This document shows positions 1-54,585 of a DNA stretch of 64,000 nucleotides, in pieces; the stretch's first letter is position 1, and the number at the start of each line of letters is the position of its first letter. The DNA comes from Arthrobacter sp. Soc17.1.1.1 (GTDB lineage Bacteria; Actinomycetota; Actinomycetes; Actinomycetales; Micrococcaceae): NCBI RefSeq assembly GCF_036867195.1, contig NZ_JBAJII010000001.1, positions 3,658,001 through 3,722,000 on the forward strand, written 5' to 3'. The notes beneath the pieces are model-generated. The model was not told the DNA's origin. It worked only from the letters and a program-made list of their open reading frames with translations, and ran no database searches. A program made the translations under genes and the position numbers.

Positions 1-1
1 C

Positions 2-700
2 GTGGACGAGACCGTCGACTACCAGGCTGCCGAATCTGCCGCGGGCAGGAAGGAGAGAGTACCGTTCCTGCGACTGATCTCCGAAGCCCCGGTGCGACTG
101 GTCGTCGGCATCAGCGCCTACCTGATGAACAACGCCGGTTTCTTCCTGCTCACCACGTTCATGATCAGCTACGTGACCGGCACCCTCGACCTCGACGCCA
201 CGGTGATCCTGACATCGATCTCATGGGGTGCCGTCGCCCAGATCGTCATCACGCTTGTCGTCGGAAGGCTTTCGGACCGCTTCACCCCCTCGAAGATGCT
301 CATCATCGGGTATGCGGTGAGCGTGGTGACGGCCTTCCCGATCTTCTGGCTCGTCGACTCACGTCAGTCGGTCGCCATCAGTGCCGCGATGTTCCTCGCC
401 CTGGGGCTCGGATCGATCTCCTACGCCGCCCTGGGCACCACACTGACCCAGCTGTTCCCGGTGCGCCTGCGCTATTCGGGAATCGCCCTCTCGGCCAACA
501 TCGCGGGCGTCATCGCAGGCTTCATGCCGGCGCTGGCCGCCTGGATCCTCACCCTGACCGACGGTTCGTCCACGGGCCCCGCCCTGTTGCTGCTCACCCT
601 CGCACTGATCTCGTTCGTCGGATCGATCCTCGCCCGACGCATCATCCTCGCCGATCACCGCAACCATCCGCCCCGGGGCGAATCCCTCCCGGACAGCTGA
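2..700 (+). CDS. MFS transporter, C-terminal part (5' truncated by window edge)
   Basis: This is the C-terminal half of a major facilitator superfamily carrier. The frame is open to the window edge, so the N-terminal bundle lies outside; the GTG at position 2 is probably not the real start. About six hydrophobic segments follow one another (roughly residues 28-52, 62-85, 97-116, 125-143, 155-182, 192-213). The loop GRLSDRFTPSK near residue 88 matches the MFS loop between helices 8 and 9. The pattern resembles metabolite:proton symporters of the ProP/ShiA/KgtP group, but the substrate cannot be told. The next gene is 184 bp downstream. Confidence 0.8.
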   Translation: MDETVDYQAAESAAGRKERVPFLRLISEAPVRLVVGISAYLMNNAGFFLLTTFMISYVTGTLDLDATVILTSISWGAVAQIVITLVVGRLSDRFTPSKMLIIGYAVSVVTAFPIFWLVDSRQSVAISAAMFLALGLGSISYAALGTTLTQLFPVRLRYSGIALSANIAGVIAGFMPALAAWILTLTDGSSTGPALLLLTLALISFVGSILARRIILADHRNHPPRGESLPDS

Positions 701-36088: not shown

Positions 36089-36169
36089 CTATTTAGGGCA
36101 AAGTTGTCTACAGTAAGTAGTGAGCAAGGGAATTCACCGCGTAAGAACCAAGGGGAAGGACACGCCATC

Positions 36170-36592
36170 GTGCCGGAGTTGAACGATTGGTCGACCAGCC
36201 GCCTGCTCACGACCGCGGCCCGCATCGTCGAGCACTCATGGAACGAGAAACTCCTGGGCATCGGCATAACGCACGCGGGACTGACCACATTGGGAGTGCT
36301 GGAGCGGGAGGGGACCCTGACGGGCGTCCGCCTGGCTCAACTCGTCCATGTGCAGGCACAGACCGTGGGACGCACATTGGACCGCCTCGAGAAGCGCGGT
36401 CTGGTGACGCGCCTCCGCAACACAGCGGACCGCCGCAGTCAGCGGATCACCATCACCTCGGCCGGGCTGAAAGCCCTGGAGCGGGCGAAGAACATCGAGA
36501 ACGAACTGATGGCCGAGGACGGCCTCGCCTCGCAGGACCTGCGAGACCGCCTCAAGACCGTCATCAACGAGCTCGGTCCGAAGAAGGACTAG
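36170..36592 (+). CDS. MarR family regulator, paralogue 1
   Basis: A 140-residue MarR-type winged-helix regulator. The GTG at 36170 is chosen since the protein then aligns from its first residues with the second paralogue (VPELNDWSTSRLLTTAAR against MSELEEWSTSRLLTTAAR), and GGGAAGGA lies just upstream; a TTG at 36104 would add 22 residues. The DNA-binding part reads LTGVRLAQLVHVQAQTVGRT, followed by the wing DRRSQRITIT. The gene converges with dnaB and the stops overlap. It probably controls the TAAG-site genes from 30.4 to 36.6 kb. Confidence 0.88.
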   Translation: MPELNDWSTSRLLTTAARIVEHSWNEKLLGIGITHAGLTTLGVLEREGTLTGVRLAQLVHVQAQTVGRTLDRLEKRGLVTRLRNTADRRSQRITITSAGLKALERAKNIENELMAEDGLASQDLRDRLKTVINELGPKKD

Positions 36593-37965
36593 TAGCCGCC
36601 GCCGTCCGCAGCCATGTTGTTGAAGCGCGAGTAATGGCCTTGGAAACCGACCACCAGGGTCTTGGTCGGGCCATTACGGTGCTTCGCGACAATGACGTCC
36701 GCCTCGCCGGCGCGCGCCGACTCCTTATCGTAGACGTCGTCACGGTGCAGCAGGATCACCATGTCGGCGTCCTGCTCGATCGAACCGGACTCGCGGAGGT
36801 CCGAGACCTGGGGACGCTTGTCGGTCCTCTGCTCGGATCCTCGGTTGAGCTGGGACAGCGCGACGACGGGGACGTTGAGTTCCTTCGCCAGCAGCTTGAG
36901 TGCCCGTGAGAACTCCGACACTTCCTGCTGGCGGGATTCCACCCGCTTGCCGGAGGACATCAGCTGCAGGTAGTCCAGCACCACGAGCTTGAGGTCGTGC
37001 CGCTGCTTGAGCCGCCGGCACTTCGCCCGGATCTCCATGAGCGACATGTTCGGGCTGTCGTCGATGAACAGCGGGGCGTCGTTCATGCGACCCATCGTGG
37101 TGGCGATCTTGCCCCACTGCTCGTCCTTGATGGTGCCCTTGCGCAGGTCCTGGAGACCGATGGTCGCCTCGGCCGAGAGCAGGCGCATGGCGATCTCGTT
37201 CCGGCCCATCTCGAGGGAGAAGAACACCGTGGCCATGTTGTGCTTGATGGCCGCCGACCGCGCCCAGTCGAGCGCGAACGTGGACTTGCCCATCGCGGGA
37301 CGCGCGGCCACGACGATCATCTGACCGCCGTGCAGCCCCTGCGTCAGTTCGTCGAGTTCGTAGAAGCCCGTGGGCACGCCCGTCATACCCTCTCCACGGT
37401 GACCCGCGGACTCGATCTCGTCGACGGTCCCCTCGATGATGTCCTTCAGGGCGACGTAGTCCTCCGCGGTGCGGCGCTCTGCTACCGCGTACACCTCGGC
37501 CTGCGCGGCGTTGACGAGGTCGTCCACCTCGCCGTCGTTGGAGTAGCCGAGCTGCACGATCTTGGTGCCGGCGTCCACCAGGCGGCGGAGGACGGCGCGC
37601 TCGCGCACGATCTCCGCGTAGAACCCCGCATTGGCGGCCGTGGGCACGGACTGGATGAGCGTGTGGAGGTAGGCGGGGCCGCCGATGCGCGAGATCTCGC
37701 CACGCTTGGTCAGCTCGTCCGACACCGTCACGGCATCCGCCGGCTCGCCGCGGCCGTAGAGGTCGATGATCGCCTCGTAGATGCTCTCGTGCGCCGGCCG
37801 GTAGAAGTCGAGCCCGCGAAGGACCTCGACACAGTCGGCGATGGCGTCCTTCGAGAGCATCATCCCCCCGAGGACCGACTGCTCCGCGACGAGGTCCTGC
37901 GGAGGCGTGCGTGAGAACTCCGGGCTACGTGTGTCCGTCGATGAATCTGCATGTGCCAGGGACAC
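36589..37965 (-). CDS. dnaB: Replicative DNA helicase
   Basis: A 458-residue DnaB helicase that unwinds DNA at the replication fork. The N-terminal domain begins PPQDLVAEQSVLGGMMLS. The RecA-like motor has Walker A AARPAMGKSTFALDWA (about residue 213), Walker B KLVVLDYLQLM, ALSQLNRGSE and DADMVILLHRDD (motif H3/H4 region). No intein is present. The GTG start at 37965 is supported by the purine-rich GAGAGAGG just upstream. The 720-bp upstream gap holds a cluster of DnaA-box-like sites. Its stop overlaps that of the MarR gene by 4 bp. Confidence 0.96.
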   Translation of the reverse strand: MSLAHADSSTDTRSPEFSRTPPQDLVAEQSVLGGMMLSKDAIADCVEVLRGLDFYRPAHESIYEAIIDLYGRGEPADAVTVSDELTKRGEISRIGGPAYLHTLIQSVPTAANAGFYAEIVRERAVLRRLVDAGTKIVQLGYSNDGEVDDLVNAAQAEVYAVAERRTAEDYVALKDIIEGTVDEIESAGHRGEGMTGVPTGFYELDELTQGLHGGQMIVVAARPAMGKSTFALDWARSAAIKHNMATVFFSLEMGRNEIAMRLLSAEATIGLQDLRKGTIKDEQWGKIATTMGRMNDAPLFIDDSPNMSLMEIRAKCRRLKQRHDLKLVVLDYLQLMSSGKRVESRQQEVSEFSRALKLLAKELNVPVVALSQLNRGSEQRTDKRPQVSDLRESGSIEQDADMVILLHRDDVYDKESARAGEADVIVAKHRNGPTKTLVVGFQGHYSRFNNMAADGGGY

Positions 37966-38133
37966 TGAAGGGCCTCTCTCCTGCTGCTGAAGCGGTGTTC
38001 GCCAGAGCGGACCACCGGGTTCCCGGGGCTGGTCTGACAGGACAGGCCTATCACCCGGCGCCCTCACTATTGGGAATCTCCGGCTACGGTAGTCCCCCGA
38101 TCGGAGGCGGCAAAGCGCCAACCCAACAGGGGG

Positions 38134-38316
38134 TGTGGGTAAGTGGGAGGATGCTGTGGATTGCAGGCCGTATCTTGTGCACAGGATGGGGACAACCCTG
38201 TGGACAGTACTTCCCATTCCCGGCAAAAGGGCCTCTGACCTGCGGGAACGTTATCCCCCGGGTGTGGATCAAAACTATTTTCCTGGCCACTCCATCCACA
38301 GGGGCGCTGTTGACAA
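38134..38316. promoter_or_regulatory. Cluster of DnaA-box-like sites upstream of dnaB
   Basis: Sites related to TGTGGAYAA (complement TTRTCCACA) are TGTGGGTAA (38134), TGTGGATTG (38155), TGTGCACAG (38176), TGGGGACAA (38187), TGTGGACAG (38199), TGTGGATCA (38263), CCATCCACA (38292, opposite orientation) and TGTTGACAA (38308). The first five start 21, 21, 11 and 12 bp apart, i.e. about whole helical turns. An A/T-richer run lies at 38269-38283. Binding by DnaA is inferred. Confidence 0.55.
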
Positions 38317-38686: not shown

Positions 38687-39136
38687 CTAGCTGGCGACGA
38701 CGTCCAGGTCGATGACGGCTGCGACGTCCTCGTGGAGACGGACGTTGGCCTGGTACGAGCCGACCGACTTGATGTGAGCCGGGAGTTCGACCTTGCGCTT
38801 GTCGATCTTGCCGAGACCGGCGGCCTCGACGGCCTTCGCGACGTCGTCGGCCTTGACGGTGCCGAACAGGCGGCCGGAGCCACCCGCCTTCACGGTCAGG
38901 GTGACGGGCTTGGCCGAGAGGGCCGCCGCCTGGCGCTGGGCGTCCTCGAGCGACGCGTGCTCGCGGGCGGAGCGGGCAGCCTTGATCGACTCGACCTGCT
39001 TCTCGCCACCCTTGCTCCACGTCAGGGCGAAACCGCGGGGCAGAAGGTAGTTACGTGCGTAACCGTTCTTCACCTCGACGACGTCGCCTGCTGCACCGAG
39101 TCCGGTGACTTCCTGGGTCAGAATGAGCTTCGACAT
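38687..39136 (-). CDS. rplI: 50S ribosomal protein L9
   Basis: A 149-residue L9 protein. The N-terminal RNA-binding domain has [20 protein letters not shown] and [14 protein letters not shown], the L9 signature; the helical connector and the C-terminal domain ([20 protein letters not shown]) follow. It starts 15 bp after rpsR and ends the rpsF-ssb-rpsR-rplI operon. Confidence 0.98.
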
Positions 39137-49269: not shown

Positions 49270-50490
49270 CTAGGCGCTTCGGTCAGTTACTGTCCGCAAT
49301 CCCGCATCGTCCGTCACCGGTCGTTCGCGGGCTGCGGGGGCCACGAGGAAGGAGGCCAGCACGGCGACCCCGACGGCCAGCAGGGCGTTGCGGATGCCGA
49401 CCACGTCGCCGAGGAAGCCGATGAGGGGCGGCCCGGCGAGGAAGGCCGTGTAGCCGATGGTCGCGACGACGGAGACGCGCGCGGCGGCACGATCGGGATC
49501 GTCCGCCGCCGCCGACATGCCCATGGGGAATCCGAGCGCGGCCCCCGCACCCCAGAGGACGGCTCCGACGGCGGCGAGGGGCACGTTCGGTGCGGCGACG
49601 AAGACCACGAGGCCCGCGAGGGAGGACCCGAGGCTGGCCTGCAGGACCCGCACCCGGCCGAAGCGGTCGATCAGGGGCCCGCCGAGGAAGCGCAGCGCCG
49701 TCATCGCGGCCACGAACACCGCGAACATGACGGCCCCGGTGCTCTCCGAGGTGCCCAGGCCGTCGACGCTCGCCTTCGCCACCCAGTCGTTGGCGGCCCC
49801 TTCGGTCAGCGCGGCGCCCAGCACCACCAGACCGATCAGCAGCGTGCGGGGTTCGCCCCATGCGCCGAGGCCCCGCCGCCGGGCGCCGTCGGACGCCGGT
49901 CCCGTCGCGGACCCGTCCGCCGGCGCCTCGGGCAGGAAGTGGCGGGGCGTCCACAGGGAGACGGCGAGGCTGAGGACGGCCACGGCGACGAGGTGCGCCG
50001 ACAGGGACACGTCGACGGCGGACAGACCGGCCCCGATGAGGGCGCCCACGAACGCTCCCCCGCTGAATGCGGCATGGAAGCGCGGCATGATGGTCCGCCC
50101 GACGAGGCGCTCGACGTCGGCGCCCTCGATGTTCTGCCCCACGTCCCACAGGGCGATCCCGCAGCCGAACAGGAACAGTCCGACGGCCACCACCGGCACG
50201 GAGGCGATGGCCAGGCCGAAGGCGACGGAGGTCGCGGCGACGGCGGCGGCGGTGCCGCCGATCCGCACGGTGTTCCCGGTGCCGAAGCGTGCTGCGACGA
50301 GCCCGGCGAGGGGGAGGGACAGGACCGAGCCGACGGCGCCGACGAGGAGGAGTCCGCCGGTCTGGCCGGCTCCGAGTCCCAGCGTGTCCGATGCGGCCGG
50401 GATGCGCGCCGCCCAGCTCGCGAAGACGAGGCCGTTGAGGCCGAAGATGGCGTAAGTGGCGATCATGGCGGCGCGGACGGCGGGTTTCAC
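49270..50490 (-). CDS. MFS transporter
   Basis: A 406-residue carrier with twelve transmembrane helices. Starts VKPAVRAAMIATYAIFGLNG from a GTG at 50490. Loop motif GLVAARFGTGN resembles motif A in the first half; PLIDRFGRVRVLQ is the corresponding site in the second half. The pattern resembles the YbjJ/fucose-permease-like branch (two six-helix halves, LVFASWAARIPAASDTLGL). Substrate unknown. Its upstream gap contains the DnaA-box-like array at 50554. Confidence 0.87.
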   Translation of the reverse strand: MKPAVRAAMIATYAIFGLNGLVFASWAARIPAASDTLGLGAGQTGGLLLVGAVGSVLSLPLAGLVAARFGTGNTVRIGGTAAAVAATSVAFGLAIASVPVVAVGLFLFGCGIALWDVGQNIEGADVERLVGRTIMPRFHAAFSGGAFVGALIGAGLSAVDVSLSAHLVAVAVLSLAVSLWTPRHFLPEAPADGSATGPASDGARRRGLGAWGEPRTLLIGLVVLGAALTEGAANDWVAKASVDGLGTSESTGAVMFAVFVAAMTALRFLGGPLIDRFGRVRVLQASLGSSLAGLVVFVAAPNVPLAAVGAVLWGAGAALGFPMGMSAAADDPDRAAARVSVVATIGYTAFLAGPPLIGFLGDVVGIRNALLAVGVAVLASFLVAPAARERPVTDDAGLRTVTDRSA

Positions 50491-50553
50491 TCTGCCACCG
50501 TAGGCGGCGGCCGCGGTGCGCCACAAACGGGGTCAGCAGGCAAGGCCTCCGCG

Positions 50554-50609
50554 TTGTCCACAATTTGTGGACAACCCTGTGGACGGCGCTGTGGAGGAGG
50601 TGTGGACGA
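50554..50609. promoter_or_regulatory. Array of five DnaA-box-like sites
   Basis: One perfect TTGTCCACA (50554-50562) faces a perfect TGTGGACAA (50566-50574), separated by ATT. Three further same-direction copies follow at 50578 (TGTGGACGG), 50590 (TGTGGAGGA) and 50601 (TGTGGACGA), spaced 12, 12 and 11 bp. The 16 bp GGACAACCCTGTGGAC at 50569-50584 are identical to those at 38190-38205. It lies between the ABC-F stop and the MFS start. Confidence 0.65.
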
Positions 50610-50616
50610 ACGCGAC

Positions 50617-52299
50617 TCAGCGCGCCCGGACCACCCGGCTCTCGTCCCAGACGGGCTCCTTCGTCTCGTACACCCTGCCGTCGGAGCCGAACACGAGGAA
50701 CCGGTCGAAGCCGCGGGCGAACCAGCGGTCGTGCGTCACGGCCATGACGGTGCCCTCGAACGCGCCGATGGCCCGCTCGAGGGCCTCCGCGGAGTGCAGG
50801 TCGAGGTTGTCCGTGGGCTCGTCGAGCAGCAGGAGGGTGGCGCCGGAGAGCTCCAGGAGCAGGATCTGCAGCCGCGCCTGCTGGCCGCCGGACAGGGAGT
50901 CGTAGGGCTGCTCGGCCTGCGACGCCAGCCCGTAGCGGTCCAGGACGGCGGACGCCGCCTCGCGGCCCAGCCCCGAGCGGTGCTCGTCGCCGCGGTGCAG
51001 GATGTCCACGAGCGTGCGGCCGAGGAGATCGGGCCGCGAGTGGGTCTGCGCGAAGAAACCGGGGCGGATTCGCGCGCCGAGCTTCACGGTGCCCTCGTGC
51101 GGCACCTCGGCGATGTCGACCTCGGACACCGGCAGGTGCTCCCTGTCGGGATCCGAGCCGCCGGCGGCGAGCAGCCGCAGGAAGTGCGACTTGCCGGAGC
51201 CGTTGGAGCCCAGGACGCCCACGCGGTCCCCGAACCAGATCTCGGTGCTGAAGGGCTTCATCAGCCCCGTCAGTTCGAGCTTCTGGGCGACGACGGCGCG
51301 CTTGGCGGTGCGCCCGCCCTGCAGGCGCATGGACACCTTCTGCTCCAGCGGGATCGCCTCGGGCGGCCCGGCCTCGAGGAACTTCGCGAGGCGCGTCTGG
51401 GCGGCGTGGTACCGGTTCGCCATGTCCGAGCGGAATGCCGCCTTGTTCTTGTACATGTTGACGAGTTCCTTGAGCTTGATGTGCTCCTCGTCCCACCGCT
51501 TGCGCAGTTCCTCGAACCGCGCGTTGCGGTCCTCGCGTGCCTTCAGGTACGTCTCGAAGCCCCCGCCGTGCGTCCACGACGACGCCCCGAGCACGCCGGG
51601 CTCAAGGGTCACGATGCGCGTGGCGGCATTGGCGAGCAGCTCGCGGTCGTGGCTGACGAAGAGCACGGACTTCTTCGACTCGCGCAGCTTCGCCTCGAGC
51701 CAGCGCTTGCCTGGGACGTCGAGGTAGTTGTCCGGCTCGTCCAGGAGCAGGAGCTCGTCGGGGCCGGAGAACAGGGCCTCCAGGACGAGCCGCTTCTGCT
51801 CCCCGCCGGAGAGCGACGACGCCGCCCGGTACTGCGCGCGGTCGAAGGGGACGCCGAGGGCGGCCATGGTGACCTCGTCCCACGTGGTCTCGAGCTCGTA
51901 GCCGCCTGCGTCGCCCCAGTCGGCGATGGCCTGCGCGTACCTCATCTGCGTGGGTTCGTCGTCGGCCTCCATCATGGCGAGTTCAGCGTCGTCGATCCGT
52001 TGCGCCGCCGCGGCGAGCGCGGGCGGCGCGGCCGATACGAGGAGGTCCCGGACCGTGGTGTCGTCGCGTACCTGGCCGACGAACTGCCGCATGATGCCCA
52101 TGGATCCGGACCGGCTGACCGCCCCCTCATCGGGCACGAGGTCGCCGGCGACGATGCGCAGGAGGGTGGTCTTGCCGGTGCCGTTCGGGCCGATCAGGGC
52201 CGTCTTGTGGCCGTCGCCCACCTTGAAGGCCACGCCGTTGAGCAGTTGCCTGCCGTCGGAGAGGAAGTAGTCGATACCGGAGACGTCGAGATGAGCCAC
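50617..52299 (-). CDS. ABC-F family ATPase
   Basis: A 560-residue protein with two ABC domains and no membrane segments, as in ABC-F translation factors or ribosome-protection proteins. First site: LIGPNGTGKTTLL and LSGGEQKRL with LLLLDEPDNYLDV. Second site: VLGSNGSGKSHFL and LSGGQQARL with LLLLDEPTDNLDL. The interdomain linker (about residues 240-310, ARFEELRKRWDEEHIKLKEL) is a charged helix. The GTG at 52299 is preferred over 52323. Which subfamily, housekeeping or antibiotic resistance, cannot be told by eye. Confidence 0.9.
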   Translation of the reverse strand: MAHLDVSGIDYFLSDGRQLLNGVAFKVGDGHKTALIGPNGTGKTTLLRIVAGDLVPDEGAVSRSGSMGIMRQFVGQVRDDTTVRDLLVSAAPPALAAAAQRIDDAELAMMEADDEPTQMRYAQAIADWGDAGGYELETTWDEVTMAALGVPFDRAQYRAASSLSGGEQKRLVLEALFSGPDELLLLDEPDNYLDVPGKRWLEAKLRESKKSVLFVSHDRELLANAATRIVTLEPGVLGASSWTHGGGFETYLKAREDRNARFEELRKRWDEEHIKLKELVNMYKNKAAFRSDMANRYHAAQTRLAKFLEAGPPEAIPLEQKVSMRLQGGRTAKRAVVAQKLELTGLMKPFSTEIWFGDRVGVLGSNGSGKSHFLRLLAAGGSDPDREHLPVSEVDIAEVPHEGTVKLGARIRPGFFAQTHSRPDLLGRTLVDILHRGDEHRSGLGREAASAVLDRYGLASQAEQPYDSLSGGQQARLQILLLELSGATLLLLDEPTDNLDLHSAEALERAIGAFEGTVMAVTHDRWFARGFDRFLVFGSDGRVYETKEPVWDESRVVRAR

Positions 52300-54021: not shown

Positions 54022-54141
54022 TGGACCTGTTGCGGCTGATCCCGTCCCCCTGCACCATCCGGTCAGCCGCAAGGACACGACACCCGGCCGGCGCTGGTCT
54101 GCAGTACCGGCCGGGTGTTTCAGCCCTGGAAGGAACATCGC

Positions 54142-54585
54142 ATGTCTGAACTGGAAGAGTGGTCAACCAGCCGCCTGCTCACCACCGCCGCGCGCCTCGT
54201 GGACCACGCCTGGAACGAGAGGCTGCTCGACATCGGGATCACCCATGCCGGCTACACCACCCTGGGGGTCCTCTCCCGGCAGGGCACCATGACGGGCGCC
54301 AAGCTCGCGCTCGCGGTGCACGTCCAGGCGCAGACGATCGGCAAGACGATCGAGAAGCTCGAGCGGCAGGGCTTCATCTCACGCATCCGCGACAGCATCG
54401 ACCGCCGCAGCCAGCGCATCACCATCACCCCGTCCGGGGTGGATGCCCTCGCGAAGGCCGAGGACATCGAACGGACCCTGATGGTGGGCGAGGGACTCGA
54501 ATCCTACGAACTGCGCAGCCTCCTGCGCGGCATCATCGGGGAGCTCGCGCCCCAGCGCCAGAAGCCGGCAGCCGTCGTCGTCTGA
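54142..54585 (+). CDS. MarR family regulator, paralogue 2
   Basis: A 147-residue MarR regulator closely related to the one at 36170: both have WSTSRLLTTAAR, GITHAG, VHVQAQTIGKT and DRRSQRITIT at matching positions. Helix-turn-helix about residues 50-75, wing about 85-95. GGAAGGAAC precedes the ATG. It lies 121 bp after the hydrolase gene and 188 bp before the decarboxylase gene, whose promoter carries the TAAG palindrome. Followed by a strong terminator. Confidence 0.9.
   Translation: MSELEEWSTSRLLTTAARLVDHAWNERLLDIGITHAGYTTLGVLSRQGTMTGAKLALAVHVQAQTIGKTIEKLERQGFISRIRDSIDRRSQRITITPSGVDALAKAEDIERTLMVGEGLESYELRSLLRGIIGELAPQRQKPAAVVV

Follow-up and report, generated by a model that had tools for sequence, protein, structure and literature searches.

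Control of DnaA availability is best understood in E. coli and B. subtilis, and DnaA-box clusters have been described there and in Actinobacteria. As described in PMC7738170, DnaA of M. tuberculosis binds five regions in vitro (oriC, rpmH-dnaA, the region upstream of dnaB, Rv0010c-Rv0011c, and Rv3843c-RVnc0040), and homologous regions are bound in M. smegmatis by ChIP. The same account reports that expression of both Rv0010c and Rv0011c is unchanged in dnaA mutants and that mutants of the Rv0010c-Rv0011c site form longer cells at an unchanged initiation rate (PMC7738170). Clusters close to oriC in S. coelicolor (Smulczyk-Krawczyszyn 2006) and B. subtilis can, according to PMC4585315, repress untimely initiation. 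Loss of six B. subtilis clusters, the DBCs (Okumura 2012), leads to early initiation as related in PMC5295017 and PMC4585315, and the former rates their role in initiation control as minor. For E. coli, box I of the DARS cores is opposite to boxes II and III (PMC5742627, PMC8682772), DARS2 has the same spacing as DARS1, and the essential boxes of datA point in one direction, with an IHF site also required (PMC5742627). Table 1 of PMC4285127 gives the 9-mer TTGTCCACA as a high-affinity box for M. tuberculosis and S. coelicolor.

Here, we analyzed a putative five-box DnaA-box array within a 64-kb stretch of an Arthrobacter genome (the window; C1:3658001-3722000 of the 3,767,733-bp contig C1). 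The array is a clade-specific extra-oriC DnaA-box cluster, a kind already known: its multiple boxes occupy intergenic DNA that lies near oriC but is not part of it. The point of interest is that a single box geometry recurs by dnaA, by dnaB, and at additional sites in more than one Gram-positive phylum. By neighborhood, the first four mycobacterial regions are matched in this genome by clusters in the dnaA-dnaN gap (C1:1453-1650), in the upstream regions of both dnaA and dnaB, and next to crgA (C1:15606-15667), the last being the counterpart of Rv0010c-Rv0011c; we take Rv0011c to be crgA and RVnc0040 to be a tRNA. As regards the fifth region, Rv3843c-RVnc0040, a tRNA search of the window returned none. 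Because four mycobacterial DnaA regions have counterparts among the Arthrobacter clusters, the array is very likely bound by DnaA. Mycobacteria resemble Arthrobacter as Actinobacteria with few DnaA regions per genome and with sites at oriC, dnaA, dnaB, and Rv0010c-Rv0011c (PMC7738170); binding was measured there, whereas here we infer it from the likeness to the dnaA and dnaB modules, and the array at the ABC-F gene is an extra site of one Arthrobacter clade.

The S. coelicolor clusters are likewise near oriC and resemble the array in location and proposed role (PMC4585315). The B. subtilis DBCs also lie outside oriC but are several, redundant, and from another phylum. In DARS1 and DARS2, box I opposes II and III as box 1 of the array opposes boxes 2 and 3, whereas the DARS1 spacing is 14/12 bp and that of the array 12/12. 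E. coli datA shares with the array a position outside oriC near the origin and a facing pair 12 bp apart. Its essential boxes are unidirectional, whereas the array opens with a facing pair in which box 1 opposes boxes 2-5.

Box architecture and chromosomal setting

The array packs five boxes into 56 bp and five TGTGGA cores into about 50 bp (Table 1). The original prediction of two perfect, oppositely oriented TTGTCCACA boxes is borne out: boxes 1 and 2 form a facing pair with a 3-bp gap. It also described three further copies in one direction at 12, 12, and 11 bp. The core-to-core steps from box 2 onward are indeed 12, 12, and 11 bp, and boxes 3-5 have the TGTGGA core in common, but they depart from the full 9-mer at two, two, and one positions. 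The placement between an ABC-F and an MFS gene agrees with Pfam (ABC_tran and MFS_1), ABC-F being a label that we share with the original prediction and assume for the ATPase gene. Within the array, GTTGTCCACAA-T-TTGTGGACAAC forms a perfect 11-1-11 palindrome in this genome.

Table 1. Features of the window, with coordinates relative to its first base
Feature	Position	Strand	Basis
Putative DnaA-box array of five boxes, in the gap from the ABC-F stop to the MFS gene	50554..50609	.	Box scan; 12/24 genomes
Box 1, TTGTCCACA, perfect; opposes box 2	50554..50562	+	
Box 2, TTGTCCACA, perfect	50566..50574	-	
Box 3, TGTGGA core with 2 mismatches	50578..50586	-	
Box 4, TGTGGA core with 2 mismatches	50590..50598	-	
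Box 5, TCGTCCACA (minus strand), 1 mismatch	50601..50609	-	
ATPase gene, two ABC_tran stretches	50617..52284	-	Pfam ABC_tran; synteny
MFS transporter gene	49270..50490	-	Pfam MFS_1
Second module copy, upstream of dnaB, between rplI and dnaB	38175..38207	+	Module scans
dnaB, replicative helicase gene, start unsettled	36589..38004	-	Pfam DnaB and DnaB_C
rplI, ribosomal protein L9, far side of the dnaB module	38687..39136	-	Pfam Ribosomal_L9_N and Ribosomal_L9_C

A genome-wide scan for the 9-mer found it scarcely enriched (20 copies in 4.23 Mb versus 17 for the reversed control), and TCCACA-then-TGTGGA pairs at most 30 bp apart were equally frequent in genome and control (8 versus 8 per strand). 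Same-direction TGTGGA pairs within 30 bp numbered 26 versus 13 in the control, and three such pairs in a chain occurred at the array alone among the 26 matches listed. Of 1,000 order-2 Markov sequences modelled on the window, none exceeded three cores per 60 bp, a number reached in 3 of the 1,000, compared with five in the array. The concern that many equal clusters might arise by chance is not upheld, as such clusters are uncommon in both the chained-pair and module searches.

The original prediction placed the array far from any dnaA gene, which holds for the window but not for the genome. A DnaA match lies on the same contig (C1:94-1389), and a module copy upstream of dnaA sits at the opposite contig end (C1:3767658-3767687). 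The distance from the start of this module to the DnaA match is 169 bp across the C1 ends versus 158 bp in G009, where both fall on one stretch; C1 is therefore most likely a circle. With the ends joined, the array is ~59 kb (59.3 kb) from dnaA on the 3.77-Mb contig. Among the 12 genomes with the array, the distance is 37-67 kb in eight, ~143 kb in G006, and ~1.06 Mb in G009, with G000, G003, G009, and G012 taken as circular; in G019 and G021, the array and dnaA are on separate contigs. Origin proximity follows from where the ABC-F gene sits and amounts to a single event. GC skew was weak across the part analyzed and too noisy to use as evidence on a skew switch at the array.

Two additional observations concern gene placement. 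In G009 (L165), the dnaB-type module and the ABC-F array are jointly located ~1.06 Mb from dnaA (with the contig taken as circular), a distance that sets this genome apart and reflects either a rearrangement or an assembly fault. In the window, a pair of ORFs (36104-36592 and 54115-54585), ~61% identical over 134 amino acids, flanks the array region on either side; the label MarR-like for them is our own.

Conservation within the genus

The array is present at the 3' end of the ABC-F gene in 12 of the 24 Arthrobacter genomes compared, and synteny shows this gene end adjoining the array in the relatives. In a DnaA and ABC-F tree, one branch (support 1.000) divides the 12 genomes with the array from the 12 without it, and the former make up one clade under midpoint rooting. 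This distribution fits a single gain followed by retention. Absence or scrambling in relatives had been named as grounds for doubting the array; it is absent from half of the congeners but is not scrambled within the clade. The genus thereby offers a natural comparison at one locus between a clade with an extra DnaA array and sister lineages without it.

Information content across the 12 genomes was 1.74, 1.80, and 1.50 bits per column for boxes 1, 2, and 3, compared with 0.90 and 1.47 for the two gaps, 0.48 for the 40 bp to the left, and 0.78 for the right-hand 28 bp, in which boxes 4 and 5 shift by one base among genomes. The third base of box 1 is mostly A or G (C in one row). Arguing against rigid box identity, 10 of the 12 rows have C or G as the last base of this box, and the core of box 2 reads TGGGGA in three (G011, G001, and G003). 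Both boxes of the facing pair are perfect solely in the query genome and G021. The palindrome is broken in relatives, by a box 1 A that faces a box 2 C in G017, G015, and G009 and by the TGGGGA core in the three genomes just named, and hairpin pairing is not kept; box form and step are retained where it breaks.

The array start lies 52-108 bp from the ABC-F match in 11 of the 12 genomes. The exception is G012, where the match is split but the anchor is 77 bp from the array. On the opposite side, the adjoining minus-strand gene encodes the MFS transporter in six genomes, its start (with the start codon as we chose it) being 64 bp from the array in the query genome. A different protein of 366-421 amino acids is encoded in the other six (G003, G009, G012, G019, G020, and G006), by a gene situated between the array and the MFS gene (L164:13620-14786 and equivalents), with a further insert in G006. 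These six proteins are similar by eye, and the G003 copy had no Pfam match. Separately, tblastn read the ABC-F gene of G012 (L166) in two pieces, and this gene may be broken or may contain a sequencing error.

A recurring three-box module

Boxes 1-3 (forward, reverse, reverse, with 3-bp gaps) constitute a module that is also found upstream of dnaA and of dnaB in the query genome. We scanned 846 kb, comprising the window and DNA of relatives, for a plus-strand box followed by a minus-strand box 11-13 bp on and a second minus-strand box 11-12 bp further. By position and sequence type, matches fell solely upstream of dnaA, at dnaB-type sites, at the ABC-F 3' end, and at sites to the right of dnaA; reversed sequences of the same 846 kb gave none. 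A fixed 12/12 pattern allowing up to three mismatches was then searched in 30 whole congeneric genomes. All 71 matches were kept, versus 0 for the reversed control pattern, and by our own sorting on sequence type they comprise 26 dnaA-upstream sites, 26 dnaB sites, 13 arrays, 4 other-strand array palindromes, and 2 strays with three mismatches. The dnaB context was checked in the query genome and in certain records of Arthrobacter (including G001) and other genera. G016, which is 86% complete, was the sole genome of the 30 to lack a match. Given its first spacing of 11, G006 escapes the 12/12 pattern; with G006 added from other comparisons, the array is present by sequence in 14 of 30 genomes, including G038 and G040, whose arrays are known in this way only.

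A wider run of weaker boxes (38134-38316) surrounds the copy between rplI and dnaB, and its dnaB-type form is the one with 26 matches in the 30 genomes. This recurrence, together with that by dnaB in other genera, suggests that the helicase gene is regulated by DnaA.

Beyond the genus, an exact scan with one extra free position retrieved at least 119 stretches. Among the 119 matches listed, 63 had a DnaA match no more than 6 kb away (no more than 1.5 kb in 62), 1 was near dnaN alone, 21 had a DnaB match no more than 3.5 kb away, 3 were at the Arthrobacter ABC-F end, 3 had a match to pknB or trpG, and 28 were near none of the probed genes. For 18 of these 28, one neighboring ORF each was compared with Pfam, and 13 scored above the family cut-off; the families are varied (Clp protease, patatin, MatE, GlnD-type, and others), with rhomboid seen once. 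A rhomboid gene also neighbors the crgA-side cluster of the query genome (L137:15606-15760, right of dnaA), which sits between it and crgA. The taxa, given for 80 of the 119, include Actinomadura, Bifidobacterium, Mycolicibacterium, Rhodococcus, Brevibacillus, Paenibacillus, and Clostridia. Among the matches listed, both Actinobacteria and Firmicutes have the module next to dnaA; next to dnaB it occurs mainly in Actinobacteria (e.g., Actinomadura and Bifidobacterium).

Nine genomes selected because they bear the module had one to three copies each at up to three mismatches (control, 0). Of 148 genomes of the class, counting the query genome, 61 contained a copy with two or fewer mismatches and 87 had none (control, 0 of 148); within the large-genome genus g38, the 12/12 module was found in none of 10 genomes at the same threshold. 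The 12/12 form is thus common but far from universal. We found no description of the array, or of a 12/12 module shared by dnaA, dnaB, and extra sites, in the open-licence papers searched. The constant geometry at these sites supplies a concrete sequence for testing cooperative DnaA assembly and nucleotide exchange in Actinobacteria. A broader proposal is that the forward-reverse-reverse module is a general Gram-positive DnaA assembly core, located at dnaA, dnaB, and lineage-specific sites, that would act as a counterpart of the enterobacterial DARS core, using a head-to-head dimer to alter the nucleotide state of DnaA, and would be gained by lineages to retune initiation; we regard this as improbable. 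One record, L229, titled Sporosarcina beigongshangi, bears an Arthrobacter-type dnaB module and encodes a DnaB 84% identical to that of Arthrobacter, and it is probably a contaminant or a mislabelled contig.

Probable role and competing explanations

Reading these boxes as a DnaA-box array, as originally predicted, is strongly supported by the module copies upstream of dnaA and dnaB and by retention of the boxes in the clade. Our preferred interpretation, to which we assign a probability of about 0.5, is that this extra-oriC cluster near the origin titrates DnaA or modulates its activity, and that such control is its main selected role. The proposal starts from what is directly seen here, namely the boxes, their geometry, conservation, and position, and the geometry held in common with the dnaA and dnaB sites. 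DnaA would bind the facing pair of boxes 1 and 2 and then spread cooperatively, head to tail, across boxes 3-5 at steps of 11-12 bp. The array would be replicated early and would thereafter hold DnaA, leaving less free (ATP-)DnaA, and re-initiation would be delayed or damped, as with the oriC-proximal clusters of Streptomyces and Bacillus. Retention of the array in one branch of the genus perhaps tunes the timing of chromosome copying. The link to the origin holds in most genomes with the array, with the distances in G006 and G009 counting against a strict one. Our confidence in titration is reduced because mycobacterial extra-oriC mutants keep their initiation rate.

A DnaA-controlled promoter is a possible, if tentative, alternative: array-bound DnaA would repress or activate the adjacent minus-strand gene (MFS here) and couple its expression to the replication cycle. 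The short distance to the chosen MFS start is consistent with this role, as are the dnaA and dnaB module copies, which likewise stand upstream of genes. Where the other minus-strand gene adjoins the array, its longest ORF begins at a distance of ~60-120 bp in five genomes, whereas that of G006 overlaps the array. A single target is harder to reconcile with the change of neighbor across the clade (MFS in 6 of 12, the other protein in 6 of 12), while the ABC-F side stays constant. The 11-1-11 palindrome, perfect in the query genome, could also serve as an operator or a transcription terminator independent of DnaA, but this is very unlikely. Such readings are disfavored because the boxes and step persist in relatives where the palindrome breaks; in addition, no T-run was found adjoining the palindrome, and the module also occurs at other loci, next to dnaA and dnaB.

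The suggestion of a second or remnant replication origin is not supported, and we consider it extremely improbable. Box density is on par with oriC, but dnaA and dnaN are located elsewhere and 60-bp windows over 50380-50760 revealed no AT-rich unwinding element beside the array, the lowest G+C being 0.58 versus 0.35 in the dnaA-dnaN gap. For a DARS-like element, in which DnaA bound head to head at boxes 1 and 2 would release ADP, regenerate ATP-DnaA, and raise initiation, the agreement suggested at the outset extends to the order of box orientations (PMC5742627, PMC8682772) but not to spacing, with steps of 12 then 12 bp against 14 then 12 bp in our reading of the MG1655 DARS1 core. Boxes 4 and 5 also exceed a three-box core. 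A search with the 14/12 pattern in the 30 genus genomes gave five matches in four genomes and none in the query genome, four of the five being the dnaB-type site 2 bp out of step, and such a role appears quite unlikely. As a separate observation, the rppH side of the MG1655 DARS2 region (L178:2136-2170) contains a weak 14/12 forward-reverse-reverse set at 2136, 2150, and 2162, in addition to the run at 2466.
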